From Tremella fuciformis (lineage: Eukaryota; Basidiomycota; Tremellomycetes; Tremellales; Tremellaceae), in NCBI GenBank assembly GCA_032768795.1, contig CP136495.1, positions 312,501 through 376,500 on the forward strand: a stretch of 64,000 nt of DNA, given 5' to 3'. This document shows positions 1 through 34,362 of this stretch, in pieces. Position numbers and translations under genes: made by a program. The notes beneath the pieces were generated by a model, which made no database searches, was not told the DNA's origin, and saw nothing but the letters and a program-made list of their open reading frames with translations. The stretch's first letter is position 1, and each line of letters starts with the position of its first letter.

Positions 1-188
1 GTGTTAACATGTATCGCCGCTGCCACATTCGTTCCTCGAAGGAAGGGATGGACGAGTTCGTCGATCTGAATTTCATTCTGATGTTGTAAATCTCTCAGAC
101 GTTGTTCGAGTTGTCAGCCGTTCCAGGATGCCGGATCCCGTAACTCCCTTTCTTGTGTCAAGGGGAGTGAGCAGGCGTTCGGCCGCCA

Positions 189-365
189 GTTACGCCATTC
201 GTAACAACCTTTCCGGAATACGCGCCCACCTTGTCTTGAGGCAGCAGGTTCTCCTCCCCTGGGCGTGACGAAAAGCGTAGCAGCGAAGTCGAGGGTTTCG
301 TCCTGACCCGTTCATCCCCAGACTGTGTCTCGTCTCCCTCCCACCATCGTCACGGGAAGCGTAAC
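189..365. repeat. GTYACG-N5-CGTRAC palindromes, cluster 1
   Basis: Three copies of the dispersed 17-bp dyad: 189-205 (perfect arms GTTACG/CGTAAC), 265-281 (degenerate, GTGACG/CGTAGC) and 349-365 (GTCACG/CGTAAC). All have a spacer of exactly 5 nt. They lie just upstream of an acceptor-like CAG at 378-380, so they probably sit in an intron or the 5' region of the first helicase gene. Confidence 0.8.
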
Positions 366-380
366 ATTGCTGAGTCGCAG

Positions 381-3300
381 CGGAAGGCAAAAGCAAAGCC
401 GTCAGCGACGGCCAAAAAGCGAAAAACGCCAAATGTAGCGGATGCACGAAGTGCTCCAGCCACTACGAGTGAAGCGCCCCAGGTCACAAGGGACGATGAG
501 CAATCTTCCCTCTCCAGGTGAGCACCATACGAGGTTGGGGCCCGCGCTTACATGCGAAGCGCCCCACCGGAGGATGATCCCGTACTGGGCCCGGGGCCGA
601 GCCAGACCGTAGTGCCAACCTCCACTGCGGCCACTAAACGGTCCAGCCCTCCGCCCACGTCCGAGAGAGCTAGGGAGTCGACGACCCCCGAGGTGAGTCG
701 AGAGTGTTTCTTGCTCTTGCTGAAGCCTTAGAGTCCTTCACCCCTCGAATCGATGGCCCGGCCTATCCAACGGGAGTCACCCCCCGCCAAGTCCACTAGA
801 AGGCTCGCCAAAGGCAAAGGCAGAGCAAAAGCCCGGACACCAACTCCCTCCGGCACCGAGAGCGACAGCACCGCCCGGTCGGATGATGAAGATCAAACCG
901 AGCTGGTAGGCTGACACACAAACAGAGAAACAACGCTTATGTGGAAGATGAAAGCCATGGTCGCTTCAAAGCATATGGAGCCGATCGCAAGTTCGGGTGC
1001 AGGTCCAAGCGGTCCGAGGTCGCCTGATGTATGTTGCACTCTCTCCCCCTCGCACGTTACGAACGGCGTACCAGAGCTGATTGACAGGCGGATGAGGACA
1101 TGGAACCCCCGGTCAGCGGCGACGAAGAAGGGGATACGGAGGGCCCAAAGACCACCGCCAAAACGAAGAAGGGCAGGACGGCCAAGACTGGCGCCAACGA
1201 AGCTGAACTTGCCCGCAAGGCTCGCGAAGCAGAAGACAGCCGACGAAAGATCCTGTACCAACATGCCAAAGGCGGGCCTGCGGGAGTCGAAATTGATCGC
1301 CGAAAAGTCAAAGTCGTGTCTCTACCATGGAGCGCGTCTGCTCCGCGCGCTGTAAAGAGCGCCAGCGCCGTCAAACCCGAACCACGGCGAGAGCGAGGTG
1401 GTCCCAATATGGCACGGCCCCATACGTTACCCGACGAATGGTTCATCCACTCCGAAGGAAACAGTCACCCTTACGCGGAGGCCCTCGTTGGAATCCCGTT
1501 TGATCTCTGGTGCTGTCAACCGTTTTGGGATATGGTGGAGGAATGGACGCCGCGATTGAAAACAAACTGTTTCCCCACCCGCGCCCAATTCGACACCCTC
1601 ATCAGTAGCCTCGAAACAGCATATCCGCATTTTCTATCTGAGGCAAGAAACCGGGCTCGGCGACGCGGACAATTGGACGGTTCACGCTTCCAGGTCCAGA
1701 CATTCGTTGGACGGCGCAAAACGGCCGCTGAGGAGGACCCCGATCAGTCTGAGCCCGAGGAAACATTGCCTGGTCAGCGAGGCGTGGCAGAGTGGCGCAT
1801 GAGGGGCAAACCTTGGTTCACCCCCTATCGGAAGCGGTACGCGCGGTATCCGGTGCCCTCGATGGATCTTCCTAAGCGCCGAGCGGCAGATACAGCCAGC
1901 AACGATGACGACGGCGATGGCGCCCTGACCGATTCCGACGTCTTCGAAGAGTCAGACGCCGAGTTCGGCGTTGGGGACCGGGAGATACCGCCGTGGGAAT
2001 GCCAAATGCTCCTGAGATGGATGCCCTGGTTCATCGAAGTAGTGGGGGCCTTCATTTACGATCAAGCCTTCGAGGCTCAGCTTGCTGCGAAGGCCGTCCG
2101 TTTCGACAAGCGCAAAACTCAGACCCGCTACGTCTGGGATCATGCAAATCAGAAGGTGGTCACGAAGAAGACGGAACGGGCGACCAGCGCAGGCGCTCCC
2201 AACTATCCACCCTCATGGACCGAAGAGAGCTTTCTCAAGAGAGTCGCCTCTGGTCTATTCGGCGAGTGGGCTGTGGATGAGCAGAGCGGAGGCATGCCCG
2301 ATTGGGCCATGGGCCCGCCGACTGGCCAACGAGCTGTTCCAAAACGACAGATGTCGCCTCATGCGTCCAAACCGTCTGCGCCCGGCCAACCGACGGACAA
2401 TTCTCAGTACCCAGACACGGACGAGGATGACGATCTGCTTGTCATTCCCGATGATCCAGCCGATGATCCTCATCTTGGTCACAGGCGAGCTCGTTACTCT
2501 AAGCAAGTGCGTGAGGTCATCAGCAACCTCGTTGGCAACCAGCAACGTAAAGAGCGAAGACCTTATGAGGCTATCTTGCAAAAGGACGTCGAGATGCACG
2601 CAAAGTGGCATCCGATCGTCCTCAAACAAAACAAAAAACAGTTGAGTTTGGCCGACAGCATTCCCCACATTCAGCCCTTCTTCCAAGATCTCCAGATCTA
2701 CCACAACCTCACGAGGTATCACCCGATGTGGGTGAAGGGTTTGGAGCAGGTCTTCCTTAAATCCGCATTGAAATGCGCAGCTTTGAGCCCCGCGGACTTA
2801 CGACAACATGCGATCACACTCAGCGCGGCAGAAATCGAAGAGATACGTCATCAACACGAGATGTTCGTCGCCAACTTAGATCAAGAAGACGCCGAGGGCC
2901 GAACGGCCGCTGAACAACGTAGAGTCAGAGCGGAGTATGTGGATTCACCCGAGGATGCCTACAGCCCGCCTCCCGAAGTCGCCAAGATGCTGGACCGAGA
3001 TTATGGGGTTGAGCCCTTCGCCGCAATGGATCCAATCGACCTCATTGCCTACCTAGGGTTTGAGCAGGTGCAAGATCCAAACAGTTGGAACGCAGCCGTC
3101 AGCGCTAAGATCGGCGAAGAGGGGCAGGACAGTTCGAAATATCCTCATTTGTGGGTGAAGGCCATAATCAAGAGTGAAGCTAAAGTGCGAAGGTGTAAAC
3201 GGGACGACAATGGTGATCTGATCCTCCATAACGGGGAGCCAATCTTCCTCAACCAGAGTGCTCACGAGGCGAGAGAGAAAATCACCTGGCCATTCTTGGC

Positions 3301-6300
3301 GCAGTTCTTTCCTCAGCCTCTCAACGAAAAGGCATGGGAGAAGCTCTGCCAAAACGCAAAGGGCAAGATACCTCAACCCGACGACACCACGCACAATCGC
3401 ATTGTTCCAAAATGGCATCAAATTGTCTGCGTCGCGTCCATACTCTCTCGCGGCTTTTGTGCGAACTCGTGGACTGAGCCTTCGTTCGCGACACTTCTCG
3501 CCGATGACGTCGGTTTCGGCAAGACTTGGATTCCGTTCATGCTGATTGGCGCCCTACGTTACTACCGAGAGCAGCGCGCCAAGGATCCAGCTTTCAATCC
3601 GCCCGTATTCGATGCGAACAAGACTCTGTGGAAGAAAGTTGATGCCGAGTAAGTTTCACTTTTTGTCGCGTTACGCGGGTCGTGACTCCCGTGGGAAGGG
3701 GGAGGTCAGTCAGGAAACCTCTGGGTTACGGGAAGCGTAACAAGTGGAGCGCGCCGAGTCATATACTCTGCTCTTCCTCTGGGAGTTACGGGAAGCGTAA
3801 CAAGCGGAGTGCGCGGAAACGCAAACTCTGCTCTTCCTCTGGGAGTTACGGGAAGCGTAACAAGCGATTTCCATCGGGAAGCAGAGGCGGTTGCGCATCT
3901 CATAGCTCCATTCTTCACGTCTGATCGCCGAACGGCATTTCCCCGCGTCGTGCCCTCCCCCTGGCCGTCACGGACACCGTAACCTGCCTGTAGTCCGGTC
4001 TCGGATCCCTAGAAACTCCTATCGCGGACTGACCAGTGCTGACGGACAGGATACCTTCTTCACCGCCAACCGCGAGTTCGCAGTGGGTTGGGGATACTAG
4101 ACTTGGTATTTTCGGCCAATCTTTTGGTCGCATTCATCTCTTGCTGTCCAACAAGTCCATTTACTCCGGACATGTAAGAGAAGCCGAAAACCTCACACGG
4201 GCGCCCATAATCTTCATGGACTACGTGAAAAAGGTCACCCGCTCGAATCCTAGCTCCCGTCAAGACTTTTGGCGGGCGGTTAGGGAAGCTTCGGCGGCTT
4301 CGAACCAGGACGTGATTGTGATCTCCACGTACGGACATCTACTGGTCGACGCCGCAGCGTGTCCCAGCAACGCGCGCACCGACAGAGGTTTTGCCCAGTA
4401 CTCGCTGTTCGATCCCGGCGTCCGATTCACTACAGTATTTGTCGATGAAATCGCGGAGATGCGGGTGCCAACCAGTAGAGTGCACTTGGCGGTCCGCAGA
4501 ATTGCCGAGCGCTCGGGATACATCATCGGTGCCACGGCCACCCCGATATACACATCGGCCATGGATATTATTAACATTGGTCGCTGCATGGGGATGGTGC
4601 CGGTTGTGAGGAGAGACCATGTCACGCCTATCGAGCTCAAAACGAACGCGTCCAACGGGGCCTTGCCTGACCAGCCCTACTCTGGCAATACGGACACCAC
4701 CGAGCTCACCGACGCGATGAAACGACTGGTCACGAAATTCAACGAGCTGGATGCAGCGGGCCGCCGACTTCGTGCCCGTCTCGCTGGTGCCGCCCGAAAG
4801 GGCAAGAAGAAGGATACTACGAACCCCGAAGACGAGCGAACGGCCATGATAGATCGCAATCTGGTCCAGCTTGCCAAAAAGCATGATACGCTCGCCGACG
4901 ATACGCCCGTTGGGCTCGAGGGTGACCTCAAGAAAGATTGGGAGGCTCATATAGGCAAGGTCGAGCAAGAACTGTTGAAGCCCCTACGAGCCATTTTCGC
5001 CAACCACATTGTGCGAAGGTCGACGCACTCAGTCGACTACTGTGGCCGCAAGTGTTCGACGGTGAAGCCTGTCACGCCACAGGAGATCTGGGTAGATTTG
5101 GAGGGGGCCGAAAAAGAGGCATACGAGGCCTTTGAATCTCAGCTTGATGCTCGGGACAAACAATTCGACTCGAAGCTGAGACGATTCCTGCGCGAGCCCA
5201 ACGCTGTGGTCACAGGTTTCTGGGACCCTCAGAAACCTACTCCGGCGGCCCTGGCAACAGCTATCGACATGGTTCGCAACTTCCTCAATGAGGACCAGCC
5301 TTTGGCTGCCCAAACTCGTCGCAAGATTGTGATCCACACCCAGTGGACGTCCTTGGTCCCCTTCTTCCAAGCTCATTTCGCCAAAGCGGGAATCCCAACA
5401 TGCGCCATGACCGGTCAAGACACCGAGACCGAACGCGCCCATATCATTCGTGATTTCCAACGCGATGATGATATGGTTCCGGATCATTTGCTCGAGCTGG
5501 GCACAGGCAGTTTTGACGACATCATAGGGGACGACGCTGGCGCGAGGGTGCTGTTCATCTCCAACATCGGCCTCACCGGTATCACTTTGCACAGGGCCTC
5601 TATCATCATTCTGCTCGATCCTTCCTGGTCGTACGCAGACGTGCAGCAGGTGATCGGTCGAGTGAACCGAATGAACCAGACTCGCGAAGTCTTCGCCTAT
5701 GCCGTGTACATCAGAGGCACGTGCGAGGAGAAGATGTATCGGCTTGCTGGATCCAAGCGGGAGTCAGCCAATTTCCTATTGGGTGATCGCCGGCCCGACG
5801 ACGCCGCAGCGACACACATGGCCGATGTATCCGAGGCTCAGACTCCGGACCGCGACATAAGGGAGGCGCGGCGGGAGAGACTGGTACGAGAGGAGACAGC
5901 CGGGGAGATTGCTTTCGTCACCCATTACCAACCTTTCGTGACCACCGATCCGTACCTCGTCGAGGACGACCGGGAAACACCAGAGCCGAGCGAGAAGGTC
6001 TCGAAAAAGGGACGCGGGACAAAGCGAACCAAGGAGGCGACTGCTGAGCCCCTCAGGCACGCAGCCCTTTCTGGCTATGATCAGAGCGACGAGAAAGACC
6101 GATCGACAATTGTGAACATGTGTCAGGTCTGGTGCCCCCCCAAACCATCTTCTCCGCCCACCGATATGGCGTCTCTAGACCTGTCGGTGCGGTACTATCG
6201 CTTCTGCCGCATCAAGATTGTCTGTGACACCCCCCTCGTGCCGGGTTCGGACGACGACTCTAAGTGGACTCTCGTCCGTGGTCGGACCCTGTTGTGTAGG

Positions 6301-7326
6301 CTGTTCAGAGGTGAGAAGTGGTCTTATTCTCTTCAGCTCCTCGTTGACTTTCAGCCCAAGACCCGATCGTCTGCGATCTATTCCCCCAGCTCATTGACTT
6401 GATCGTTCCAGCGTCGATCGGTGTGCCGACCAGCTCCTCCGTCCGGTGGCCACTGCTCAAGTTACTTCTCCAAAGGATCCCGAATCCCCGAGGCTTCCAC
6501 CTGGACGACCCGATGTCATATGTTGACGAGAGCGAGCTCCTCTCGCGCCCCGATCAAGGCATCAACACTCACCTCGACCGCTTCTTCCCGTCAGCACGTC
6601 GACCCCAGGAGCAGAGGCATGTGCGGATGTTGTTGTATCTTTACAACTCGCTGGGAAGCATTTCACCTTCCGTTACGACCTGCGTAACTCTCGCGGGAGA
6701 CGACGACATTGCGCTGCTTCAGCTCGCGGAGGACCGAGCCAATCATGTTCGCCGGCTCCTGTTCAGGCTCGCTGGTTTGGATCCTGCAAACGCGGTGTCC
6801 GAGGGTGAGCTTACCATTTGGTGGGCATTTGTCTCCGCCATTGCGTGTAGGTTTCCCCAACAGAGGTGAGAGATTAAGACTCACGTCATCAGATTGCGAT
6901 GCCTACATCCCTCACACAGACCGCCTCGCTCCCGATCATTGGCTCCATCAGGCCACTCAGCTGGCGGGTCTGTGCGATTTTGAAGGTGCGATGACGCAAG
7001 CAGTCTACAAGGCAAATGAGGTCGATTTGAAGCGTCTACGGCAAGTCCACAAGAAGTGTAAGGGGTGGAACCTCGGTCGCGACCCCTGGCGAGATCTCGA
7101 CGCGACCAAGCTCGACTTGACTCATGGTGAATGGGACAGACTTGAGTGGCTTTCTCGAGAGTGGGACCCGACGAACCTGGACCTGAAACCATGCAAGCTG
7201 GCGATAGATAACGGGATATTCCGACAGACAGCCCATGATGCGAATATTCCCAAGACCGCGAAGAAGAAATCGGGCGGCAAATCCAAGGTGACTCCGAAGG
7301 CGAAAAGTGGAGCAAAGCAAGGTTAG
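381..7326 (+). CDS. Giant SNF2-like helicase, paralog 1 (5' end open)
   Basis: Inferred exons are 381-517, 560-692, 732-905, 1088-3648, 4050-6310, 6355-6846 and 6893-7326. All phases agree, giving about 2,063 residues; the true start may lie left of 381. Residues 1-250 are charged and low in complexity. Helicase motif I (GFGKT) is near residue 957, motif II is DEIA (near 1132) instead of DEAH, and a GATATP motif III is near 1162. The C-terminal helicase half includes the arginine-finger block QVIGRVNRMNQ near 1535. This identifies an SF2/SNF2-type DNA-dependent ATPase, presumably nuclear and chromatin- or DNA-translocating. The N-terminal 900 residues and C-terminal 400 residues match only the neighbouring paralog. 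The 401-nt intron between motifs I and II is far longer than the other introns, mostly about 40 nt, and is filled with palindromic repeats. The subfamily cannot be assigned from sequence alone. Confidence 0.82.
3649..4049 (+). other. Long palindrome-rich intron of helicase paralog 1
   Basis: The donor GTAAGT follows GCCGA, and the acceptor GACAG precedes the exon that starts at 4050; a CTGAC branch-like site lies just before the acceptor. Phase 2 matches the intron at the same place in paralog 2. It is about 400 nt, roughly ten times the length of most other introns of the gene. Confidence 0.75.
3670..3983. repeat. Five palindromes in an intron, three in a 60-bp tandem array
   Basis: Palindromes lie at 3670-3686 (GTTACG/CGTGAC), 3725-3741, 3785-3801 and 3845-3861 (all perfect, spacer GGAAG) and 3967-3983 (GTCACG/CGTAAC). 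The three central copies are exactly 60 bp apart, and the DNA between them is conserved (shared CTCTGCTCTTCCTCTGG), so this part is a 60-bp tandem repeat of about three units. Confidence 0.9.
6672..6688. repeat. GTTACG-N5-CGTAAC palindrome inside an exon
   Basis: A perfect copy with spacer ACCTG inside the coding sequence of helicase paralog 1, read as the residues VTTCVT. Paralog 2 lacks it and is about six residues shorter across the interval, so the dyad may have arrived as a small in-frame insertion. Confidence 0.8.
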
Positions 7327-7517
7327 ACGTTGTGAAAATATCACGTGTGACATGTGACCCGTACATCTGATGAGCTATGCATTCGAGTTCCGCGATCCCG
7401 TTCGACGTTTTCCATTCTTCTGCCACGGTCGAGCCGTAGACCCGGAGATCTCCTTCGCCTGTCCAAGAACCCAAATGGCGTTCCTCTTATACTGTGACTT
7501 GAACAACGCAGCAGGAT

Positions 7518-7950
7518 GTTACGGCGGGCGTAACTGGTTTTCGCACGGAGCATTGACGTCATCAGGGTTTTCGGTAACGCCGCAAACGCCGCGGTATCTT
7601 CCCAACACGCAGCAGAATATAAAGGCTGGATGGAATCTTCAATTTTGCCTCTCTTCCACCTAGTCCGTCTTCTCACTTTTTTTCTGACTGCATGACTGTT
7701 AGGAAAGGCGGATAGAACAAGGTCAGTCGTCACGGTTCCCGTTACACCTCGCTTTTATTGCTCTACTGTGGGGGGGAAAGGGGGGTGGGGTCGTTACGGC
7801 AGGCGTAACCAGGTCCCAGTCGCCGTGCGTCGCATCAGCACTGAGATTCCCGGCCTGGCCCTGACAGTCTAAGATAGGAAGGGGTGGAGCGGGTGGGAGG
7901 TCCGACTGTCTGGCGGTCTCCCGCTCCACGGTCGTCACGGGAGGCGTAAC
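7518..7950. repeat. GTYACG-N5-CGTRAC palindromes, intergenic cluster
   Basis: Four copies: 7518-7534 (perfect, spacer GCGGG), 7729-7745 (GTCACG/CGTTAC), 7793-7809 (perfect, spacer GCAGG) and 7934-7950 (GTCACG/CGTAAC). They lie upstream of helicase paralog 2, on both sides of a CRE-like and TATA-like element. Confidence 0.85.
7554..7624 (+). promoter_or_regulatory. Possible promoter: CRE-like site plus TATA box
   Basis: A perfect TGACGTCA octamer (7554-7561) is followed 56 bp later by TATAAAG (7618-7624) and then a pyrimidine-rich stretch. It could drive helicase paralog 2, but the distance to 8416 is large, so an untranslated or short coding first exon would be needed. Motif evidence only. 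Confidence 0.3.
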
Positions 7951-8415
7951 ATTATGCATGAGTGGGCTTTTGCGCCCAGGCCAAACTTTTAGGGGTTGAA
8001 TTAAGATTGCCGGGACTCTTCGAATTTACTCTCGCTGACTCCAAGTGAGGACTCCCGCAGTACAATATTTCCGAGCAGGCAATAGCATCGCTACGCTCGG
8101 GCAATGTCGGCCAATGATGACTCTGGAACTTCCAGCATGATGCACACAGTAGGCCAAAATGTCTCTCACCAGGACATGCCAACAGCAGGACGCCGCGATG
8201 GTCGAGTCAACTGATCCACACCCGGACGACACAGAAGCGGCCTCCCGAGACCAATATGAGGATCCAGGGCTTATCACGAATTATCGGCCATCTGACAGCG
8301 CCTTCCTCAGGACCATTGTGCATCAGGTGAGGCATCTCTGCCTGTCCCTCCGTTCTTAAGTAACAATAAGGGCTCCGACATCGTCATCCGAAACGGTCTT
8401 ACATCGGTCGAGGAA

Positions 8416-11400
8416 ATGTCAGAATCTCTGACATCAAATGAAAATAATAACGACCATGTCAACACCGCAGAGAGTCTCAGCCCTGTACCGCGGGCACACC
8501 GAATCAGGCTGGAAGCCGAGTTCTATCGAACAGCCCAGGCAAGGATCCGACAACTCGTTGATCAGCGTCAGCCTTCCGTGTCTTCTATACCGATTGGCGA
8601 TTTTCTTCCCACCAAACCCAAGATCAAGCTGCTACCATTCAGTGATAAGGCTCCCAACGTGCTCAAACCGTCGATTGGCAGAGAGCGAAAGTCTCCTCCC
8701 AAGCCGGAGAGCATGCTACCTCATCAGCTTGGCGATGAGTGGTTCGTTCACTCGGAGAGCAATTCCCATCCCGCTGCTGGAGCCTTCATGAGACTTCCAT
8801 TCGACTTGTGGCAGTGCACGCCCTTCTGGTCCCTGTTTAGCGAATACTCTGTGCGCTTGCGAGATCATGTCCTGGTTACTCGAGAAGAATTCGACCAAAC
8901 CTTGTCCGCGTTGCCAGAGTTGTCGCGGCGTTTCCAGGCAGAGGCGATTTCACGCGCTAGGCGTCGAGGACAGACGGACAATGGTCTCTATCAGGCAGAA
9001 GCCTTTCGGGCTGCAAACCTGGCAGACGACGATACTGAAGACGAGGAGGCGATGCCTGCGAATGCCCATTCGGCATCTTGGACACGGAAAGGTGCGGTAT
9101 GGCTGGAGGAATGGGACCCGAGGTATGCAATGTGGCCGGCACCCTCTGACATGGACGATAGCGAGACCTGCGATGACGAGGACGAAGATCCGACCGACCA
9201 CATCGAATATGGAGTAGATGATCGCAGCCGTCCTCCCTGGATCAACCAGCTCCTGACTCGATGGCTACGTTGGTTCACCGACACATGCGGCTTGGTGCTG
9301 TACGACGAAGCCTTTGAGTGCCAGCTCGCTGCCAGGTCGGTCCCTTACGAGAAGCGGTGTCATCAAAATTGGTGGAGCTGGAGAGGGGAGGGTCGATTGG
9401 GCGAAGTGATCGCGAGGTCATCCCTCCAGCCGCAACCGCCAGTGCCCCCGAAAAAGCAGGACAACCCTCAAAACACCCCCCCCTCCTGGCTAGAACCGGA
9501 TTTACTGCTTCGCGTAGGCAAGAGCCTATTTGGCGAATGGGCGGTGGTCGAAAACAGTGCTGGAAACCTGGAATGGGCATCATATCCACCTAACGCTTCG
9601 GAGGGCTGGAGACAGAGCATGAGCAGACAAGAGCGATACCAGAATAATATCCGGGCCTTTGTACGTACGCACGCCAGCAACTTCCAGCGCAACGAAAAAA
9701 GAGCGTACGAGGCGATTCTTCAGGCGGATGTGGCATTCAAAGCAGAGTGGGGACGGATGAAGGACCAAATGAACGCATACAAAAAGAACAGCCAAATTCC
9801 TGCCGTATTCGTGGTGGAGAACCTCAACTCGTTTCTCACCGCATTGAGAGCATATGGTTCGCTCACGACGTCTCTGCCGCTGTGGGCGACAATTGTCGAA
9901 AAAGCACTGTTAAAGAGAGCCTACAATTTGTCCATACTCTCGCCGGAACAGCTACTTGCGATGGGCGTGGCGATCTCTCCCGACGAGCTGAGCGAGATTA
10001 TCAAGGAGCACCGCATTCATACGGCCGAGACCAATCACGAGGCGGACCACCAAGGTCCACGGATGGACAGGGTCGAAAATCCCATCGTAGCAGACTCTGA
10101 GGAGTATGACCCTCCACCGGAAATTGAAGCAATGCTCAACTCCGACTACGGAGTTACTCCGTTCGCAACATGGGACCCGGTCGAGCTGATACAGTACCTC
10201 GGTTTCGAAAGCATACAGAACCCTCAAACGTGGCCGACAGCCGTGGCCACCGACAAGGGCAGGGCACACCTCACAGTCAAGGAAGGTGGGACAGACAAGT
10301 TGGCTGGCGGGAAGAAAGTCTATGTCGATCCCCAAGCTCACGCCCTGCGACACAACGTCATCTGGCCGTACATAAAGCGCTTCTCGAACGTGAAAGCACC
10401 GGAATTGTGGGAGGAGGCTATCAAGAGTGCCAAACATGGTACGAGACCAGAGCCGACGGAAAAAACGCATGAACAGGTCCAGCCCAAATGGCATCAAATG
10501 GTGGCTGTGGCTTCCATTCTATCCCGAGGATACTGTGATAACGCTTGGACCGAGCCCTCATTTGCCACTTTGATTGCCGATGAGGTCGGCTTTGGCAAGA
10601 CATGGATTCCTTTCATGCTGGCTGGGGCGTTGCGATATCACCGCGAGCATTCCCAGGCGGATGGCAGTTTCAGGCCCCCGGTTTTTGATCCGAACAAGAC
10701 AGAATGGAAGGTGGCAGAACCCAAGTGAGTACTCGTTATGACAACCTCGTGCTCCATGTGAGGTTACGGATGTCGTAACTTACGCGGGGGAGATCCATGG
10801 CACCGATGGGTGCAGTCACCCCGAGAACTCCATGTTGCCCTGCCACTCCCCTCCCCTAACGTTACGGAGTGCGTAACGGGCACGAAGTGACGATTGACTC
10901 TGGAGCTCGCTCTCTCCCTCCCTCGAAGTTACGGACAGCGTGACGTGAGTTGTACGTGGCTAACGTCAGTCCGGAGCGCCCGAGGACAGTTCCCTCATGG
11001 ATCGGAGAACGGCGCTTAGGAACCTTTGCGGGTCGTGGGCGTTTACATCTGATGCTATCCAATCGTTCGATCTACTCGGGACACCTCAGAGAGTGTGAAC
11101 TCTTGGCAACTGCCCAAGCCTTCAGAATCCACGATTACGTCGCCATCACGCGAAACGATCGTACTTCGCGGACAAAGTTCTGGCAAGAGGTCCGGACCTC
11201 TTTGTCGCAAGGCTTCGAAGTTGTAGTTTTGGCGACTTATGGACGGCTTGAGCTCGATGCAAAACAGGCCCCTTCCGACCCGGAGTATAGCTCGTCATAT
11301 GCCACCAACTCCCTTTTCGATCGAGACCTTCGATACGCTACCGTCTTTGTGGACGAGATTGCCGAAATGCGCAACCCGCGCACACGTGTCCACTTTGCGG

Positions 11401-15070: not shown

Positions 15071-15440
15071 GCACCTCTTCTCGTTACTCGCCTGGTCGTT
15101 GTCGGCTGTGTTTTGGGGCATGACTGCATCCGGCCCGCCGGGCGGGCGGGTCAGTCCAAAGAGTGTATATATACTGTAGAGTCCATTTCTCTGTCCACGT
15201 CTCTCCTTCCTCCTGCTCTCTCTCTGCTCCGTCTTCTGTCTCTCTCTCTCTCTCTCCCCTCCTTCCCTCTCCTTCCCTCCCTCTCCGTCCCCCTCAGGCG
15301 GTCGCGGATGGGTGGGTCGGCGATCGACGACAGCGACCGAGGCGTGAATGGCTTGGTGGCCGCGATGAGTGACGGTTGCCAGGAGATCTCGACCTCGCTC
15401 GGAGCCCTCAAGTCACTGTCCTGCATCACGTGACGGTCCA
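15071..15440 (-). mobile_element. Solo Ngaro terminus (A-B composite), minus orientation
   Basis: Read on the minus strand it begins with GGACCGTCACGTGA and the A-repeat block (CCGAGCGAGGT and CAACCGTCACT are kept). A polypurine (GA)n stretch follows, then the B block (GCCGGATGCAGTCATGCCCC), ending AAGAGGTGC. The order A, (GA)n, B is that of the A2-B2 end of the full Ngaro element at 32913-38065, without internal genes. It probably formed by recombination between A1 and A2, or is a deletion remnant. Confidence 0.75.
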
Positions 15441-17046
15441 AAGATGCCAGTCAAACGCCGAGAAACTGCCGTCGGTCTCAATCCTCATTGTGTTCTCACT
15501 TCTCAGACTCCGATAACAGATCTCCGCGGGCACCACGGCCGCCTTCAATGGGCCTATCACCGGGGACCAGGATGCCTCGTCCTCATTTAATCGCAGTGCC
15601 AGCCCGGCGCTCAAGGGTAAAAATGGCGTATTGGGCTTCTAGGATTAGCGCACAGCCGTCAACGTGGACGTCTTAACGGGAATGCCCCCGTCCAATCCCA
15701 TTCGCTTCGACTGATCCGACGAATCGAAAGACGTAGATAGCTGCCCATAGAGCGCGAAGCATAATGTATGTTTCTCCATGTCAGACATCTGCCTAATCCC
15801 GCAAAGGTACGCTGCAAGTGCCAAAGCCAAGTGCATTGCGATGACCTACCTCCAGGAGCGTTACGGTATCCGTGACAGTTCCATCACTCAGAGCTTTTCG
15901 CAGGTGACCTTCCGGTAAGAGATCTCAACCACATAATCCGTCGGTCCGAGTGGCCCGACACTTCACATGGCAGGGCACGAGCGCACGATATGCGTCAGTG
16001 TAGCTTGAACGACGATAGGAGATCTATCGGTCATTCTATGGCTTTCGGACGACAGCCACAAACATTGAATCGATTTCGTAATTCATCCGTTTTGCCACAT
16101 CTGCCTTCCTCGCAGGAACCGTTATACCAAGTTTGACATCTCGTGTAAACATTTGGGCAAGATAGTTGTCACGGAGCCCGTGACACCGGCGAGAGCAGAC
16201 TGAGATCTACCGGCGGATTGAACGTCACGGGCTCGGGATACCACACCGACCGTTCCCGAGACGAGACTCCATGGACACATGTTATCCTCAGTTATGCTGC
16301 CGGATCTATAGAATTTATGGCTTGCTGATGTGATCACAGTGCGGTCAGTTGCATGACTATGAGTTACTCAGAGACGTAGAAAAATGAATCTGCGCCCAGG
16401 AGACGGCTGTGTGTGAGGGGTCTGTCTTCGGGCGTTTGCCCATGCTCCCGTTGTTGTGTTAGTGAACATGTCTCTGTCATCCATGGACGCGCGCCCCACC
16501 TCGTCCGACACAAATCTAGATCTGGGCCACTCGCTGCCGTTTGCTCGGTTCAGATCCAATCGCTTCTTGCCTCGTTCTAGAGCGGCAGCTTTTGTCCCCG
16601 GCCGCGGCTGCGACGGCCGACTGTCCTATCCCTGCTACAGTAACGACACCGGGTCCTGTCGAGTAACCCAAAAGATATTATTTACATGTGAACGCTATGC
16701 ATCGGTTTAACACGCATGCTGTCCAGACCGCCTATTATCTGACTGCACGCTCATTGGTCCAGATTCTGTGCATTTAAGACATTCCGCGTTGTCATCAAGG
16801 ATATCGGGGCTGTGCGAGCGAGTCCCCAAATTCTCGTGAATGGTTGGTCGTTACGCAGCGCGTAACATCCCCTGGACTGGGAGACGACAAGCGTGATTTG
16901 AATTTGAGATTTCCATGACCCATCACGGACATCGTAACATGCATGGAACGACGGAATCATCTTATGTTGACACGGCACATGTTTGTACATACTTTCGGCC
17001 CCCTTTTTTTAATCGATGATGATGGGGTCGTGCGAGCTCTCCCTGA
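15441..17046. other. Gene-poor stretch with dispersed palindromes
   Basis: No open frame here looks like a gene. The only structure seen is four dyads, listed separately. Confidence 0.5.
15860..16938. repeat. Four dispersed GTYACG-N5-CGTRAC palindromes
   Basis: 15860-15876 (GTTACG/CGTGAC), 16168-16184 (GTCACG/CGTGAC, symmetric variant), 16850-16866 (perfect, spacer CAGCG) and 16922-16938 (ATCACG/CGTAAC). The symmetric variant shows that position 3 of the arm may be T or C while the dyad is kept. Confidence 0.8.
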
Positions 17047-17355
17047 CTGTCAGACGGCCAAGTGAATAGTTTATCACTGTAAACTGACCCCGGAGAGGGA
17101 GGAATTACGATGGCGTCTTCACGGGATTCGCTGTCTGTCAGACGGCCAAGTGAATAAGTTATCACTGTATACTGACCCTGGGGAGGGAGAGATTGCGATC
17201 GGATCTTCGGGGGATTCGCTGTCTGTCAGACGGCCAAGTGAATAAGTTATCACTGTGTACTGACCCTGGGGAGGGAGAGATCTCTATGGGATGTTCGCGG
17301 GATCCCCTGCCTGTCAGACCGACAAGTGAACAATCTGGCAATGAATACTGACTTG
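17047..17355. repeat. 88-bp tandem repeat, about 3.5 copies
   Basis: CTGTCAGACGGCCAAGTGAA recurs at 17047, 17135 and 17223 and in diverged form at 17311, giving an exact 88-bp period. Each unit carries an imperfect dyad around AGTGAATAAGTTATCACT and a GGGGAGGGAGAG block. The last unit is the most diverged. No coding potential was seen. Confidence 0.9.
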
Positions 17356-18340
17356 GAGTCGACGGTCGCGTCGGTCACCGTGTTCCCGGTGGCGGAACCG
17401 CTGAGCGATCAGTGTGGCTGACGTGAGCAACCTTGCTTGCACTCACGAATCCGTCAATCCGTCCCTGCTGGTCAGTACGTGTCGACCGCCTGACTAAAAT
17501 ACACACGCTGGCGCCGCTGCGGGTCGTGTCTCCTCTCTTCTGAGCGTCAGTGGGTGGCGACAAAGACTGATGTGCACTTGCTCGGGCCCAGCGGCTCCTT
17601 TTCTGGTCGTTATTGATGGATGGCGGGGAGGAAGGAGAGCTCTTACCCAGATTCGCCCCCGACTACCTCGTCGCCCCCGATTACTTCGACGCCCCCGTCA
17701 CTGGCGCACGAGCGGGGTGGCGCTGAAGACGTGACCGTGCTCGATGATCAGCGGCTGACGAGAGTGGCAAATGGGAGGGGGCGTACGTGTCATGACTACC
17801 CTCGGTCTCGTGCTTCTCTTCGACGCTCTGCCGCTTGGCTAGCAGTCGTTCGCTTCTGCGAAGTTCCATGATTGTTTTTCAGGTGTGAGAATGCAAATGA
17901 ACAAGTGGCGAGGGTGCCATGGTGTATTATATAGCGCGCTGATTCTGTTCGCGAGCCAAGGCATCTAGTGTCTTCTTCCCACGATCGAAAGGAGGTGCAC
18001 GGACCTCGTCCCCGCCGCCTCTGGTCTTCCGCCTCACGTCCCGTCAACATGAGTCATCTGATTGGTAGCAGAAGGCCCTTCTAGCCCTTCGCATCCCAAG
18101 AAGTCGAGGACGAGCAGCGTAACAGAGAGCATAGCCCAGACCCGTCATCGCAACACCCCCACCCAGAGATGTTACGCCGTTCGTAACCGCCGATTTCTGG
18201 AATCTCCCCCGGTCTACGGGTGTTACGAGCCGCGTAACAAAGCCGCTTTCTGGAAATGCTGACCTTCAGCGGTCGTTACTGCAATCCTTTCAAAGCTCCC
18301 TCCCGGGACGTTACGATGCTCGTAACAACGACGGGGACAT
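17356..18340. other. Gene-poor stretch
   Basis: Only short open frames; one at 17620-17871 (+) is proline/serine-rich and could be coding, but nothing supports it. The right part contains three perfect palindromes. Confidence 0.4.
18172..18326. repeat. Three perfect palindromes within 155 bp
   Basis: 18172-18188 (spacer CCGTT), 18223-18239 (spacer AGCCG) and 18310-18326 (spacer ATGCT), all with arms GTTACG/CGTAAC. The first two, and the copy at 189, are followed 4-8 nt later by TTTC(C/T)GGAA, so the repeat unit may extend beyond the dyad. Confidence 0.9.
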
Positions 18341-18555
18341 GAGGAACATGTGACGGCCAGTCACAAGATAAGCTGGATTAGACACTCCGCCGGACGTCGC
18401 ATGCATCTAGAGACCGATATGTGAGATGTCAAGCGAATGATGCATAGAGAAACATGAACGGGGAGCCTCCAGGAGTAGAGGCAATATTGGAACCTCCCTG
18501 TAGCACCTCATCCGCAGCATGGATTGGAGTGGGTTCGTGAGGTTCAGATCGTTAT

Positions 18556-20348
18556 TTATCCAAAGTATGCTGGGGGAGCAATTGCGATGCTTCTTGTCAG
18601 GGTCTTGGTCTGCCACAGCAAAGAATAACATATGTCGAGAAGCTTGGAGACTGACTGTTTCCCCCCTTTCTTGACAAGTTGGCGAGGATCGTAGATGAGT
18701 GCCTCTGCGCAAGAAGGATGGCCGCACAGCAAGTGCGGAATTTCCAGCAGACGCATAACGTACAGCGTATGTGAGTTCGGTGCCTCATCCGAGGGCCGCA
18801 TGGACACCCATGCTGCGTTGACGATGCCATCTGGCACCTAGGTGTTCAGCGTCGCACCGCAAGAGCAATAGAACGGCTCACATGTTCCGACAATAGTAGA
18901 AACAATGCCCTCTCTATCCCTACCATGTGTTTGTTATGGATCCGGCTCAAGACAGACGTCGACAAGGGGACAAGATAATGATTGAAGGCGTAAGATCAGA
19001 TCCTTCCGAATTTCGGCTTGTGCCAATGTGCCGGCGAGGCCAGGCATCGGGAGCGCCATGTTCGAACGGATGACGTCCCAAAAGAGTAGCAACAGCAGGT
19101 CCAGTCTGACCTGGCGTGTCTTGATTGATTGAAATGGTGATTGATGCACATCTGTCGGCGCAGTCTGGTCTTTGCTCTTGCCAGTCGAGCTGCCACTGAC
19201 AAGGATACGAGCGATGAATGAGAAGACCATGTCGTAGGTTGGAGGAGGGTCGGGCCTACAGGGATCACGCCAAAGCCAAAGTAGGCCTCTTCGATCGCCT
19301 TTGGTGCGGGTTGTACGGACTCGTTGAAGGAGGCGCCGGACATCTACACCTTCAACTGTTTCAGCGTGCCTTCAAAAATGGCGGGGTCCGGGTGTGTTGA
19401 GCATTTCGGCTCGACAGCGCCGATAGGTCTTTCCGGGAGTTTCTTCTTCTTCATCGAGATCATTCTGCTCGTCAGACTGCTCCGTGTATGGGACCAGGCG
19501 GCAGCTAACCTGAAGTTGAGCTTGCGTAGATTCCGCCTGTGTGATCTCCGCCAGCTGTGCGAGCGATCCGCCCTTTCCCAAACGCGCCATCTGTTTGGAA
19601 GAGAAACAATCGGGTCTGCCACGCCCCGGGCTGGGATACAGGATACGGTAGATGCACAGGCGGGGCTGCGACAGTCAGCTGAATTGTTCTGCACAAAGCA
19701 AAGCGACATACCCCTTGTTTTGCCCGTGGTGGGATGGATGTCCTTGCACGCTCGATCCAGTCTGGTGACGAGATCCGGAACGAGGCCATGTATGGTGTCT
19801 CTGAACGGAGAGAGGCATTTCAGTGTTGAATCCAGGGGCTGTCGACATGAGCAGACATTCGCACACGTACATGACGAGGCGCACATCCACTATACTCATC
19901 AAATGTGCGCCCACGTCTTTGAACCGTTCCTTGAGCGTCAGCTCTGCGTGGCCCAACGGGTGTGACTACGAGCTCGCCTTGTCCTATCACCGGATTCCGA
20001 CGGACTGACTCAACGCCTGCTGGCTGGTGATGGCGGAGTGACGCGGTGAAGCAGCTCTGCCATCGGAGGGATGGGTGAGGACGGGCTGGTCGATCTTCTC
20101 GCCAATGCCGCCAGCTGGTGCGGGACACAGCCACACGAGGACGAGTGGGGCGTTCTCGTGCGATCCGTTGACTTTATGTCGGTCGCATGAGAGACAACAG
20201 CCGACTGAAGTGTGCTCCCGCGAAATACACGGCTCCGACCCTCGCTTGTAAACTTGCACGTTTGCGAGTGGCCACGAGTGGACCCCTGGAATCTCTTGCG
20301 CGAACAAACACACCTGTCCAGGCTAAATTCGTCTCCTCGACATATCAA
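18556..20348 (-). CDS. Uncertain multi-exon hypothetical gene
   Basis: The minus strand shows several adjoining open segments that read like exons in changing frames: about 20348-20010, 19956-19675, 19590-19372, 19230-18934 and 18837-18556. The last contains CGHPSC, and CEPFYCSCG can be read just before it, hinting at a zinc-binding C-terminus. I could not build a phase-consistent model and recognise no family. It lies head-to-tail downstream of the recombinase gene on the same strand, inside the palindrome-bearing region. It may be a degraded or poorly resolved cargo gene. Confidence 0.3.
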
Positions 20349-20431
20349 TCCTCGATTTTGACATTGCGGCCGACAAAGCGAACGAGGACACTTCGCAACG
20401 TCCTCATGATTTACACATCCCGCCCTCTCTT

Positions 20432-20448
20432 GTGACGAGTTTCGTAAC
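20432..20448. repeat. GTGACG-N5-CGTAAC palindrome
   Basis: Single near-perfect copy (GTGACG, spacer AGTTT, CGTAAC), just beyond the 5' side of the uncertain minus-strand gene. Confidence 0.75.
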
Positions 20449-20716
20449 CAGGGGAAAGCGGAATGTCAACAGGGTCTGGGCGCAGCTGACATATGAGTTA
20501 CTAGGATACAAGAACAAGCCTCCGGACAAACCAAATGGGTCGCTTGGATAATGCACGGTACTCTCCCAAGGCATGGGTGTTCTTCTGTTGCACTGGTGAG
20601 ATGGGTGTTGGAGCTATTGGCATATATATACAATACATGCGACATGGAACATGCTACATGGATCATGCTAACTACTCTTACTGTAGGGCGGACATGCCAT
20701 TGTGCGGAGCTCAAGC

Positions 20717-23700
20717 TCACGCGTCCTCCTCTTCGCTCGTTTGTACGCTCAACGCCGCCTTTCTCTTGCCTTTCCCCTTGCCTGCCTCTCCCCTGCCTGC
20801 GCCGTTGCTGAGATGCGCGATCGTCCCCTCTTTCCCCTCATCATCGGTCATGCTATCATTCTCCACAAACCCAGATACCTCATTGTCGGAATCCTCGTCG
20901 GAGAATGTCTCCGCGTCCTGCCGTCCGCGCTCGATGTTCCGTCCTGCCTTGTTGATCAACGCCTTGATAAGGCCGACGGTGATAGCCTGCGGCAATCGAT
21001 GTGCTTGCGCTAACTCTTCCAACGAGCGATCATATTGTTTCGGAGAGACCGGAAGACAGGTTAACGAGGAGCGGGACGTAGGCTCAAAAGCTCGATGATG
21101 AATTTGGAGGTGATTGAACAGTTGCCAGTCCTCCAAGCTAGCTTCGGCGAATATACAGCTCGGATCGGGACAACCAGAAGTCAGCGGAGCATCAAGCGGA
21201 GTGACCATATTGGCGGTCGCTTTTGCCTTTTTGGATGCGCTCTGTTTGAGTACTCGAAGATGGGGATGATTTTGTCCCCACAGGTCGATAAAATGAAGTA
21301 AAATGTGGGCTCGCTGGTCTTTCTTGTCCGTGAATGCCCTCATACGATCTGTCCACGTGAGGGTCGTGTTGAATAGACAGAAAAAGCATCGACCGAAAGA
21401 CGAGCAGACATAGCTATTGGCTGCTAATATGACTGCCTGCGCTCGCGTGTCTTGCTGTGGACGGCGAGAGCTTGGAGCGACCAATGTACCGAGTATTTCG
21501 ATGACCTTGTATGACAATTTTCTGGCCTCTTTGGTGTATGCGATATCCGTACGCGGGCTGTATTCGTTCGACCCCGCTCGAGCGATGGTGGCGGTGAACT
21601 CGTTCTCGCAAAGCTGTTCATATTCCCGAAAATCGGTGTGAAATTGATAGTCTACCAGGGAGAACTGCGTCGGGGGCATGTGATGGCCTGCAACAGGAGT
21701 CGGTTCTCCAGCCCGGGATAGGGCAGCATCGATACGACTTCCAAGTAGTGATGCTCGAATATTGTGGTGAGTCGCGAGGTGCATGGCTTGCTGGTCGAGG
21801 CTACTGGGTGCCGCTCCGCACTCGCATATGTCGCCAGCGTCGTGTTGGGACTTGAGATGCTGGTGCCAGTGGTTCACTGTGCGGGTCGCTCCACTCAATC
21901 GAAGTGATTCTTTCAGGTTGGCGATATCTTTGCTCGAAGCATCTGCTGACATCTTGCTGCCCACACAGAACGGACACGCCTGGTCTTGATTGAAAGAGGC
22001 AATGATCTTCGGTAGAGCCTCTTTGCGGCGGGTATCACGGGTCTCCGTGAAAATGTGTCGCTTCATCTTCTCCATGAGGACGGATGTCCAAGTCGACTTT
22101 TTCCCGCCTTTACCTTTGACGATCGTGTCAACACTGGCCCCACAGCAAGGGCAGCAGTCGACACCGTTCACTCGCCTGATGCACATCCCCGGGTACCAGC
22201 CGCGTATCGTTTTCGTTTTCGCGGGGAGGCGAAGAAGGCGTTTAGCGAAATTGACTTTGTCTGTGGTCGGGTCCATGACCATCTCCGAGAGTACATCAAA
22301 GTCGTAGCACATCTCTTCGGTCGATGGAGAATCTGCACTGGAGGAGACTGGTCCGCCAACGCTGACCGGCATCGAGTTGTTGGGAGTTCTTGTCTTAAAA
22401 TCGTCTTGGCGGGCCTGGGCAGCGGAGATTCCGTGGTGTGGCTGCCGATATTTTCGTGGTTTGCTGGGCAAAACCGGGGTTGATGAGTGAGACGAAGCAA
22501 CCGGGGCTGCCTCTAAGGATGGCGTGTCATCGTCTTCTGTTGTATTGGCTTTGGTCACAATGTTCAATGATGTCTCACGTTGATAGGCCTCAGATGCTTG
22601 CAGCCCTTGTTCTCCCATGTTCATGACTGCCTCCATAAGCTCCTCATGGTCGATTCCGCGTCCGAGAAGCTGGAAGAGAGTGTCTCCAGCTCCAAAGTCA
22701 ATATCATTGAGTGTCCAGTAGCCCACATCAATATTGTTGCTGGTGGCGTCGGAGTTTGGGAACGCGTCGATTTGTTGAGAAACATCAACAGCTGCCACAG
22801 ACTCGGACACAGCTTGTTCAATTGCAGAGACTTCTTGTTCAGGACTTAGGCACTTGAGTTTGTGTGCAAGAATCTCCTGGGCCAGATACTGCAGGTCAGC
22901 TGATTGGTGCAAGCCTTGTGTTGTAATCACCTTTTTGTATAAGGTATCATATTTTGAACAGTACCTTTCACTCAAACACTTGAGAGTTTGTTGTTCTTCA
23001 GCAGTGGCACTGCTCAATGATCCAACTCTAGCTAGAACCTCGGCTCGAAAGCGCCCCTGCTTGTCCTGGATCTCCACAAGCTCCTCTTCATCCAATAGTC
23101 GCTCAAGGCTCTCCTTCTCCAGCCAAAGAGGCAGGTCCTTGTCTTTCTCCAGTCGCATGAGGCTCAACTTGGCAAGTTTATCGCCGATGGTCAGCACACT
23201 TGAGGAGATAAGCCACACTTACTCCGCAGTTCCTTCACCAAATACCGCTTTTTGAAAATTGACAAAATTCTTATTGCCCCAATACGAACCCCACGCATCT
23301 GAGGAGAGCTTATGGCCTATGCCGTATTTCAGCTCCTCCACACGTGTGGCTACCAGCATCAGCCGGCCATTCCAAATCTCCGGGGCTGACAGACTGGTCT
23401 CTGACATCGTGGCCTGAACCACCATATGGCGCATGTCATGACTTGCAAAAGCCTCCGGATATCCCGCAACGTGGCACACGTCAGACAGGAGAGAATTATA
23501 AGAGTCGGCGGCAAAAGCTTTGGAGGGGTGACAGAAAGCGGAAAGATCACTATTGGAAGTTTGGGGGTTCTGTCTTTGTTCTTCTTGTAACCGGCAGACA
23601 GGCACATTGAGCCTTGGCGTCAGTGTCTAGCTTGTCGAATCGGGAAAAGGTGCGTACCAGTCTGGCTTGAATTGGACCTGTTTGCTGTCTCGGCCTCCGA

Positions 23701-25283
23701 GGCAGGATGGGCTAAGCAGATGGTCCAAGGTCGGATCGTTCTGAATTGCGCCATCGGCAATGGCCACAACGAGGAAGAATAATGGACCGTTCAAACCCGG
23801 AACAGTGTTCTCCGTCATGCGGTAGCGGCGATTCTGGTACATTCAGCGGGCACTCACTTTCGGACATCAAGCTACCTTGCCACTGGGCGTCTTGGTGAAC
23901 TCAAGAGCGAACTCGACGAGGATGACGTTGGGCATACCCGCGGGAGACCGGAACAGCCAAAGAGTCACATGTCGGTAACAAAGAGCTCGAGCATCGAACT
24001 TTGGGTCGGAAAAACCGGACGAGCTAGTCTTCAAGAGTGCGCCGATACGCGACGCTGAAGCTGCCTGCAGATGCAGGACCAAGACGGCATAGATGCGTCC
24101 TATAGCATTGTTGTAAGGTAAGTCGATGGAGAAATAGTGCGTAATGACATCTGTGAATGATCAGGGTATGTCTGTGAGCTCAGAAAAGATACCTTTCAGG
24201 ACCTCGGCGTCGGGCGTACGGCGCATGCGATTCGTGTCGTGTATGTCACATTCGTCCGTCAACGTGGCTGCAGTGAGACAGACGTCACATCGCATGTTAC
24301 GACCTGCGTAGCACATCCGGGCTGGTATAGGTTCTGATCGAAACAATTGACAAGTTGGTGTTCACCAGGGAGCCTTTGGGTGGTGCGCTCCACCGTTGGG
24401 TCAGACTGCGTGAGATCTGTCCACCACGCGCCACCGAAAGGAGGGGTTTTCGGAAGTGCAGTCGGTTACGGAGCGCGTAACGTCCGTGGAGAGGGGGAGG
24501 GTTGTAGGAAGGCGAAACATTTTGGCAGTTACGACCGTCGTAACCACCACGAGGAAACGAGAACGGGTGACGGGGAACGTTGGCAGGTTACGAGCCTCGT
24601 AACGCTCATGGGGGAAGGTGGACATCACGGGTAGTGGAGCCTTCACACCCGTCGAGTGTTAAAAGATTTGAGGACCATCGGACTTACTCTCTATGTAACT
24701 TTTGGCGGAAGTGACCACGGTGTGATCCGTCTTCGACTTCGTTAAGCGGGCGTAGGCTGTCCTGAAACTATCAATCAGAGGTCATTGTTCCAGGTGCCAT
24801 CTCACCAGAAACTATTAAGAGCCGTCATGCAGGTGTCGAGACAAGGGCTCTCTTTGCCGCGGATGCGCCCAGACATGCCGTGGATCCTCCATTTCAAGAA
24901 CGGGTGGAGAATGTGGACCGTGAGAGCGGGGCCACCTGTTCCGGAGGTCAACTACCCCCGAACACAAGCAGGTGGTACGCACCCTCAGAAAACACCTGGT
25001 CTAAGCTTCGGTCGCCAGCCCAATCTTTCCAAAGCGCTTTGGCCGCGTCGACCTCGTCGGTGTCCATGTCCCCTTCGTCCCCGTCCGCCGCTCGCTCAAA
25101 GAATACGCTGGAGAGGAATGCCCGAAATTGTTCTAACTCTTTCTCTGCTCGATGAGCGGTGGCAGGAGAAATGTTTTTTTCAAGTTTTGTAGCCGCTTTG
25201 GCAACCGACAATAGAATCTTCGCAGATACACCAGCCTTCTTTCTCTTGTGATCAGCTTTGGTGTGGCCGCTGGAGGGGGGCAT
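20717..25283 (-). CDS. DUF3435 tyrosine recombinase (Captain-like), with C-terminal zinc fingers
   Basis: Eight minus-strand exons join in phase: 25283-24983, 24935-24806, 24761-24688, 24267-24193, 24150-23876, 23833-23658, 23612-23223 and 23198-20717, giving 1,300 residues. The DUF3435 pattern is clear: FLKWRI near residue 116, YRHVTLWLF with the first catalytic Arg in ASRIGAL (about 229), then KPDWLNVPVCR. SHDMR supplies His/Arg (about 402/405), GIGHKLSSD a further His (about 444), and SYWG the likely nucleophilic Tyr (about 454). After the recombinase domain come a charged helix and four Cys/His clusters (CCPCC about 823, CPFC about 884, CECG about 935, CPDPSC..HLQIHH about 1150). DUF3435 enzymes include the Captains that mobilise Starships. 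Oddities: a 420-nt intron with four palindromes, and a last intron of only 24 nt, which might instead be an in-frame TAA with no intron. Confidence 0.82.
24268..24687 (-). other. Long palindrome-rich intron of the recombinase gene
   Basis: On the minus strand the donor is GTAAGT after ATAGAGA and the acceptor is CACTGCAG. The phases of the flanking exons match. At 420 nt it is several times longer than the other introns of the gene (24-48 nt), and it contains four dyads. Confidence 0.75.
24296..24603. repeat. Four palindromes inside the recombinase intron
   Basis: 24296-24312 (GTTACG/CGTAGC), 24465-24481 (spacer GAGCG), 24528-24544 (spacer ACCGT) and 24587-24603 (spacer AGCCT); the last three are perfect. 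This is the right-hand limit of the repeat in the window: I saw no copy from 24604 to 64000. Confidence 0.9.
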
Positions 25284-25298
25284 CTTGGCGAAAGGTTA

Positions 25299-25327: not shown

Positions 25328-25405
25328 GGTCTCGGAGAGATATATATCACCGGCTGAATCACACGTCACCCGGTTCCGGTTCCCGGTCGGTCGGCCTTTG
25401 CATAA

Positions 25406-34350: not shown

Positions 34351-34362
34351 GAAATCGCACCT

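Follow-up and report, generated by a model that had tools for sequence, protein, structure and literature searches.

A family of 17-bp palindromes in a 64,000-nucleotide stretch of the Tremella fuciformis genome (positions 312501-376500 of contig C6; hereafter the window) belongs to one insertion of about 29,258 bp, C6:308693-337951, which contains one DUF3435 tyrosine-recombinase gene and two SNF2-like ATPase genes and splits a GTP cyclohydrolase II gene. In the strict form, GTTACG-N5-CGTAAC, all 16 copies found in the genome (28.14 Mb in 11 contigs) lie inside this element, at C6:312689-337103. We propose that the palindromes, arrayed along the whole element, may be binding sites of a dimeric protein which is specific to the element and keeps its genes expressed, in a manner like that of VANC proteins, and we give this reading an even chance of being correct. 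A preliminary description of the window had confined the palindromes to its left 25 kb and suggested a connection with DUF3435 genes. The confinement holds, and the connection is stronger than proposed, the palindrome field coinciding with the DUF3435 element.

With degenerate arms, GTYACG-N5-CGTRAC, there are 24 perfect sites in the element and 5 more with a single mismatch. The same arms at the other spacers from 0 to 15 gave no perfect site, and the one-mismatch sites at those spacers totalled 5 in the element and 5 in the rest of the window, which also has no perfect site at spacer 5. When up to two mismatches were allowed, the window held 42 matches, compared with a mean of 7.27 (s.d. 3.00, largest 17) in 100 dinucleotide shuffles. 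In a census of all palindromes with 6-base arms and spacers of 0-15, the GTTACG-N5-CGTAAC family had 16 members in the element; the largest family elsewhere in the window had 3 members, and no family in 40 Markov surrogates exceeded 2. The positions and the 5-nt spacer given in the preliminary description stand apart from small corrections of coordinate and class. Most starts on its list are right, those given as 18172 and 18223 being really 18171 and 18222, and 7 of its 12 near copies (349, 3670, 3967, 7934, 10928, 15860 and 16168) are perfect matches to the degenerate motif. Two further copies lie beyond that list, a perfect one at C6:312198, to the left of the window, and a one-mismatch one at window position 1056.

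We looked for the even genome-wide distribution that the preliminary description had named as speaking against an element-specific signal, and for the strict form it did not occur. The degenerate pattern is found outside the element as well: it has 58 forward matches in the genome, 24 of them in the element and 34 elsewhere, and its reversed control pattern has 5. Among the 26 outside matches listed, 22 are a single sequence, GTCACGTC[C/G]GACGTGAC, which at the one place inspected is part of a different repeat. Sites with exactly one mismatch to the strict form number 10 inside the element and 10 outside, and the reversed control has 77 genome-wide. The sequence GTCACGTC[C/G]GACGTGAC is dispersed on C1, C2, C3, C4, C5, C6 and C8, often in pairs 348 or 378 bp apart (for example, the L016 copies at 2820-2976 and 3198-3354), and is a separate family that fits the degenerate pattern.

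None of the 58 half-sites has a T at the first position inside the arm, which gives a half-site GTYACGV and a full motif GTYACG(V)-N3-(B)CGTRAC; the half-sites are 11 bp apart, about one helical turn. Spacer and flank sequences vary between sites. The T/C variation had been described as mirrored between the arms, and this did not survive examination: the 24 perfect sites comprise 16 with T in both arms, 7 mixed and 1 with C in both (16168), so that 7 of the 8 C-bearing sites have C in one arm only. The arms thus vary independently (Fisher P = 1), and for this reason we favour DNA half-sites over an RNA hairpin. As judged from sequence, rigid spacing, an 11-bp half-site distance and independent arms are what a dimeric DNA-binding protein would need and what an RNA hairpin would tolerate poorly. 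An RNA-family search of the window gave no match, and for the GTTACG/CGTAAC palindrome in fungi only an unrelated paper turned up in the open-licence PMC literature.

The genes and sites of the element, by window position, are:

1..25450, no strand: in-window part of the mobile element, which extends about 3.8 kb further left to C6:308693; the target gene is split and duplicated at its borders
189..365: palindrome cluster upstream of gene A, at 189, 265 (2 mismatches) and 349, with one more at C6:312198
552..7326, plus strand: SNF2-like ATPase gene A, about 2,030 amino acids; exons 552-692, 732-905, 948-1028, 1088-3648, 4050-6310, 6355-6846 and 6893-7326
1056..1072: one-mismatch palindrome within the 59-nt intron 3 of gene A
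3670..3983: five palindromes clustered in intron 4 of gene A (3649-4049), at 3670, 3725, 3785, 3845 and 3967
6672..6688: sole palindrome of the 29 in coding sequence (CDS), in gene A, translated SVTTCVT in the gene A protein P0002
7518..7950: palindrome cluster between genes A and B, at 7518, 7729 (1 mismatch), 7793 and 7934
8416..14139, plus strand: SNF2-like ATPase gene B, about 1,813 amino acids; exons 8416-10724, 10970-13218 and 13256-14139, and perhaps a short 5' exon near 8196
10763..10944: three palindromes clustered in intron 1 of gene B (10725-10969), at 10763, 10861 and 10928
15860..20448: palindromes in the gene-poor middle, at 15860, 16168, 16850, 16922 (1 mismatch), 18171, 18222, 18310 and 20432 (1 mismatch)
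20717..25283, minus strand: DUF3435 tyrosine recombinase ('captain'-like), 8 modelled exons, about 1300 amino acids; exons 25283-24983, 24935-24806, 24761-24688, 24267-24193, 24150-23876, 23833-23658, 23612-23223 and 23198-20717, with two uncertain splice choices (before 23612, and the 24-nt last intron)
24296..24603: palindrome cluster in recombinase intron 3 (24268-24687), at 24296 (1 mismatch), 24465, 24528 and 24587
25431..25454, no strand: perfect inverted repeat CTTCCCGG-N8-CCGGGAAG at the right junction
25451..25987, plus strand: orphan original 3' end of the GTP cyclohydrolase II (URC1-like) gene, at the right flank of the element

The 29 sites avoid CDS and concentrate in introns. CDS makes up 15,489 of the 29,260 element bases (53%) and holds 1 site (binomial P = 1.1e-8), introns make up 1,577 bases (5%) and hold 13 (binomial P = 9.7e-10), and the remaining 15 sites are intergenic or upstream. 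The site-bearing introns are the four longest of the 15 modelled (59, 245, 401 and 420 nt, compared with 24-47 nt). The recombinase gene and both ATPase genes each have a cluster in an enlarged intron, and both ATPase genes have another one upstream. P0002 corresponds to the gene A model from residue 21 on, save for its first residue and 14 absent residues that fit a further 42-nt intron near 3153. Its longest contig, at 6,581 bases, is shorter than the 6,715-base genomic span, so we take P0002 to come from spliced RNA, which supports the gene A introns, including the 401-nt intron with five palindromes.

Gene A intron 4 and gene B intron 1 occupy homologous positions in the paralogs and both contain clusters, and once the sites are masked no similarity is left between them (score 16 against a null mean of 17.4; 170 of 200 shuffles score as high). 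In the patch upstream of genes A and B (349 versus 7934), all 12 arm bases and the C/T asymmetry are kept (score 53, which none of 200 shuffles reached); masking the sites lowers the score to 24, which 14 of 200 shuffles reached, and the flanks alone are weak evidence. Common descent of this patch is therefore likely but not firm, and 7934 is probably a duplicate of 349. Together with the placement of the sites, these comparisons point to selection acting on the motif itself and not on some longer repeat unit.

The element lies within a housekeeping gene. Its target encodes a GTP cyclohydrolase II (URC1-like; Pfam GTP_CH_N 3.2e-73, GTP_cyclohydro2 3.2e-13), which it splits, supplying a replacement 3' end and leaving the original 3' end at its right flank. 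When the flanks are joined at a shared GAAGG, one open reading frame (ORF) runs through to the conserved end WEDIVH, and the borders C6:308693 and 337951 were set from this joining. The in-frame junctions have only CG-N-GAAGG in common; a direct repeat would be at most about 5 bp, and the sole 8-mer shared near the junctions lies within duplicated coding sequence. A comparison of the first 1.5 kb on the left with 1 kb on the right found no terminal inverted repeats of at least 10 bp at the termini, its two 10-bp seeds both being off-terminal. The inverted repeat CTTCCCGG-N8-CCGGGAAG at the right junction overlaps the target core and, with its 8-bp arms, is unlike the palindrome family; it may be part of the recombinase crossover site.

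The two target 3' ends (C6:308720-308942 and C6:337978-338200, the latter window 25478-25700) have 79% DNA identity. Third-position GC content (GC3) is 0.56 in the left, element-borne copy and 0.84 in the right copy; since it is 0.79 in the host 5' part, it is the right copy that agrees with the host, and the left copy was probably brought in by the element. In this element-borne copy, at C6:308937-309140 (L005:6437-6640), the last intron is without the usual acceptor in the conserved last-exon frame, and the chimeric target gene may be damaged or unusually spliced. The left end of the element (C6:309665-311911, about L005:7165-9411) contains nested dispersed repeats with dozens of genomic copies, which implies that the element has itself been invaded.

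The recombinase reads inward from the right end, its modelled start at 25283 being 168 bp from the right border at 25451. PF11917 matches its residues 1-597 (E = 1.6e-17), and it is the sole DUF3435 match in a six-frame search of the genome. R (SASRIGA), HDxR, GH and Y positions, read by eye in two sequences, are its predicted catalytic residues. Among 7,994 scored candidates, picked by shared words, L201_007513 of Kwoniella dendrophila was the single homolog at E<=1e-3, with 38% identity over 93%, and the Cys/His-rich C-terminus is common to both proteins. The K. dendrophila recombinase gave nothing at E<=1 in a sequence comparison with the PDB. A cyclohydrolase search (8,000 scored) has, among the 120 listed proteins, L201_007512 of K. 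dendrophila as a homolog of the target gene. The two K. dendrophila genes have consecutive locus tags, on contigs both given as 1,612,883 bp, and because this is a different genus the pairing suggests that the recombinase family sits at the cyclohydrolase gene. Comparison of 5' and 3' identities of the K. dendrophila target protein to other Kwoniella gave no clear break and does not support a replaced 3' end there. Trees of the target-gene 5' and 3' proteins in Tremellomycetes are partly discordant, with the T. mesenterica 3' end in a Kwoniella group (support 0.84); they rest on about 122 residues, have low supports elsewhere and were not used as evidence.

At the insertion codons, K. dendrophila, K. 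dejecticola, K. heveanensis, Tremellales sp. Uapishka_1 and this genome have YLQREGR. Among the listed target proteins (P0016-P0035, P0041, P0042, P0060 and P0100), most others have YFQKEGR, T. mesenterica has YFNKEGR and three have YFQREGR. YLQREGR is perhaps a target-site allele.

The two ATPase genes have long open frames and fill the left half of the element. P0002 matches Helicase_C (2.6e-9) and SNF2-rel_dom (2.6e-6), and by sequence it has weak matches to INO80, ATRX and DDM1 chains in the PDB (best 1.2e-5). Gene B is a paralog of gene A, with 47% identity over the compared exon; outside this genome a close relative of the ATPases is M231_06467 of Tremella mesenterica (40%).

The preliminary description had offered three explanations for the palindromes, a site for a symmetric DNA-binding protein, an RNA hairpin and a tiny mobile repeat, and the first is now the best supported, by the fixed spacer, the 11-bp half-site distance, the independent Y variation and the avoidance of CDS. 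Several readings could still account for such sites. The main rival is that they are ordinary operators, through which an element-encoded dimeric regulator would switch the recombinase and ATPase genes (autoregulation) without any role in chromatin. Dimeric regulators commonly use 17-bp palindromes whose half-sites lie one helical turn from each other, the lambda operators being an example, and clusters lie where operators might be expected, upstream of both ATPase genes and in the recombinase intron. However, other sites occupy the gene-poor stretch at 14-20 kb or positions well within genes, and Pfam recognised no regulator gene among the ORFs and exons scanned. We consider operators possible but on balance doubtful; they have the binding step in common with the reading that we favour, and the two probabilities overlap. 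Rather unlikely, in our view, is that the DUF3435 recombinase itself uses the palindromes as accessory sites, for synapsis or to control excision, although the recombinase could also be the binder in the operator reading and in the one that we favour, so that here too the probabilities overlap. The published target of the Hephaestus-family Starship is TTAC(N7)A and that of Neb TTACA(N5)AAT (PMC12153272). The half-site contains TTAC, with which both targets start, and the geometry TTAC + 1 + N5 is common to the palindrome and Neb. The recombinase gene has a cluster of its own, and as most spacers differ, binding without mutual recombination might be possible. Against this, the published targets are not palindromes, the in-frame junctions have only the short core described above in common, and no palindrome lies at a border, the nearest being 848 bp away on the right and about 3.5 kb on the left (nested repeats included). 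With no site at either border, the palindrome was rejected as the recombinase core site.

RNA hairpins in introns or leaders that regulate splicing or stability are improbable. In their favour, 20 of the 24 perfect sites fold with at least 6 pairs on the plus strand, 13 of the 29 sites are intronic, and 2 of 3 mixed intronic sites keep a G.U pair. However, 4 of the 7 mixed perfect sites break the plus-strand stem with a C.A mismatch, including 3967 in a plus-strand intron, the arms do not co-vary, and the flanks do not lengthen the stem, being complementary at 4, 4 and 7 of 24 sites at -1, -2 and -3. Still less credible are copies of a tiny mobile or intron-forming (introner-like) repeat. Sites 3725, 3785 and 3845 do lie in a 60-bp tandem repeat (3718-3866), and the site-bearing introns are enlarged, but this one array is the exception: spacers and flanks vary, the masked paralog introns have no similarity, no common unit is found and the sites are confined to one insertion. 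Sites for a host transcription factor would fit positions upstream and in introns of genes, one of which has a spliced product in databases; with no perfect strict site elsewhere in 28.1 Mb, this reading is largely refuted, and we rejected it as scarcely tenable.

In the reading that we favour, a dimeric, element-specific DNA-binding protein would bind each palindrome. It is probably element-encoded, because a host regulator would have sites elsewhere. By way of the array this protein would recognise the element as a whole and maintain expression of its genes, as is suggested by sites that spread along the element instead of only at promoters, with none at a border. The element's own SNF2-like ATPases would be the probable effectors, and the presence of two such genes makes a chromatin role plausible. 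Through the same binding the recombinase and ATPase genes could be transcribed in coordination, as each of the three has an intronic cluster and both ATPase genes an upstream one as well. From their sequences, neither the recombinase nor the ATPases can be singled out as the candidate binder.

Several observations weigh against this array reading. Pfam found no DNA-binding domain in the C-terminal exon of the recombinase or in the 5' portions of the ATPases, and AlphaFold models of that recombinase exon and of exon 1 of ATPase B were unusable (mean predicted local distance difference test scores of 32.9 and 35.5, respectively). Two of the three mixed intronic sites, 3670 and 10928, would still pair as RNA through G.U. 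The binomial tests treat sites as independent despite three tandem copies and one probable duplicated pair, and the placement of sites rests on our own, partly uncertain gene models. Finally, only one copy of the element was found in the genome.

Among known systems, the element resembles the Starships in its organisation. The Starship plan is a DUF3435 gene at one end reading inward, followed by cargo, within a size range of 15-700 kb (PMC12134995). Starships are described from Pezizomycotina, and eight, of 41,942-605,797 bp, have been reported in the basidiomycete Tremella fuciformis (PMC13066641). Terminal inverted repeats were present in 18 of 20 A. fumigatus Starships and are thus not universal (PMC12153272). 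The element here likewise has DUF3435 as the first gene at one end, reading inward, carries cargo and falls within that size range, but it is smaller than the eight of T. fuciformis, lacks terminal inverted repeats of at least 10 bp at the ends compared, and has direct repeats of at most about 5 bp. It also differs in lying inside a coding gene with a replaced 3' end, in its SNF2-like cargo and in its element-wide palindrome array, features not described for Starships in the portions of open-licence PMC literature examined. Because of the missing terminal inverted repeats and the short direct repeats, we regard the element as Starship-like and not as a proven Starship.

The mode of insertion resembles that of the WHO elements of Torulaspora and Lachancea, in which an HO-like homing endonuclease targets FBA1 and the 3' end is replaced (PMC7282813). 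In both cases a housekeeping gene has its 3' end exchanged, so that a full-length chimera stands at one flank and the orphaned remnant of the old 3' end at the opposite one. The element here has a tyrosine recombinase and a GTP cyclohydrolase II target in place of the HO-like endonuclease and FBA1, and among its ORFs and exons scanned with Pfam no endonuclease domain was found. The resemblance is one of design, not of kinship.

The best published likeness to the proposed working of the palindromes is VANC21, an anti-silencing protein whose motif, YAGTATTAY, it binds in introns, intergenic DNA and non-coding terminal regions of VANDAL21, frequently within tandem repeats (PMC5735166, PMC10398659). 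In both systems one element carries a short Y-bearing motif, densely placed in its introns and in its upstream and intergenic DNA, and partly in tandem. YAGTATTAY is not palindromic and is arrayed in a single orientation. To our knowledge, VANDALs are plant DNA transposons without DUF3435 or SNF2 genes, and the two systems would be comparable in working and unrelated. Bacterial integrative elements also use a site-specific recombinase, enter a conserved gene and supply the gene's end; the element here has these three features but is eukaryotic and intron-containing, and no transfer genes were recognised in it.

Tentatively, and with doubt outweighing confidence, the element can be pictured as behaving like a bacterial integrative island: it would enter one housekeeping gene, supply the 3' end at little cost to the host and bring its own chromatin system, made of a 17-bp address, a dimeric reader and SNF2 remodellers, as an independent fungal counterpart of VANC. 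If this is true, it adds a target-gene-restoring style of integration to the DUF3435 elements of Basidiomycota, a style that in the portions of open-licence PMC literature examined is described only for the yeast WHO homing elements. It would also provide a candidate fungal address code that is element-specific and tied to remodelling ATPases, and would make testable how large fungal elements escape silencing and reach a place where they can insert safely. For finding more such elements the target gene would be an easy marker, through a DUF3435 gene with an orphan 3' end next to it.

Pfam scans of ten ORFs (nine from the 14.1-20.7 kb stretch, chosen by length, and one at 28.4-29.8 kb) gave a best E of 0.14, below the cut-off. 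A small minus-strand gene had been guessed near 19.3-20.1 kb and was rejected, with only a weak TRAPP14_N match (E = 0.21). The gene-poor middle also holds a short dispersed-repeat fragment with many partial genomic copies (15070-15441) and 3.3 copies of an 88-bp tandem repeat with 87% matches (17043-17330), the latter unrelated to the palindromes. Outside the element, window positions 32000-38000 and 60000-64000 are GC-rich blocks (about 0.60-0.66) with long ORFs.

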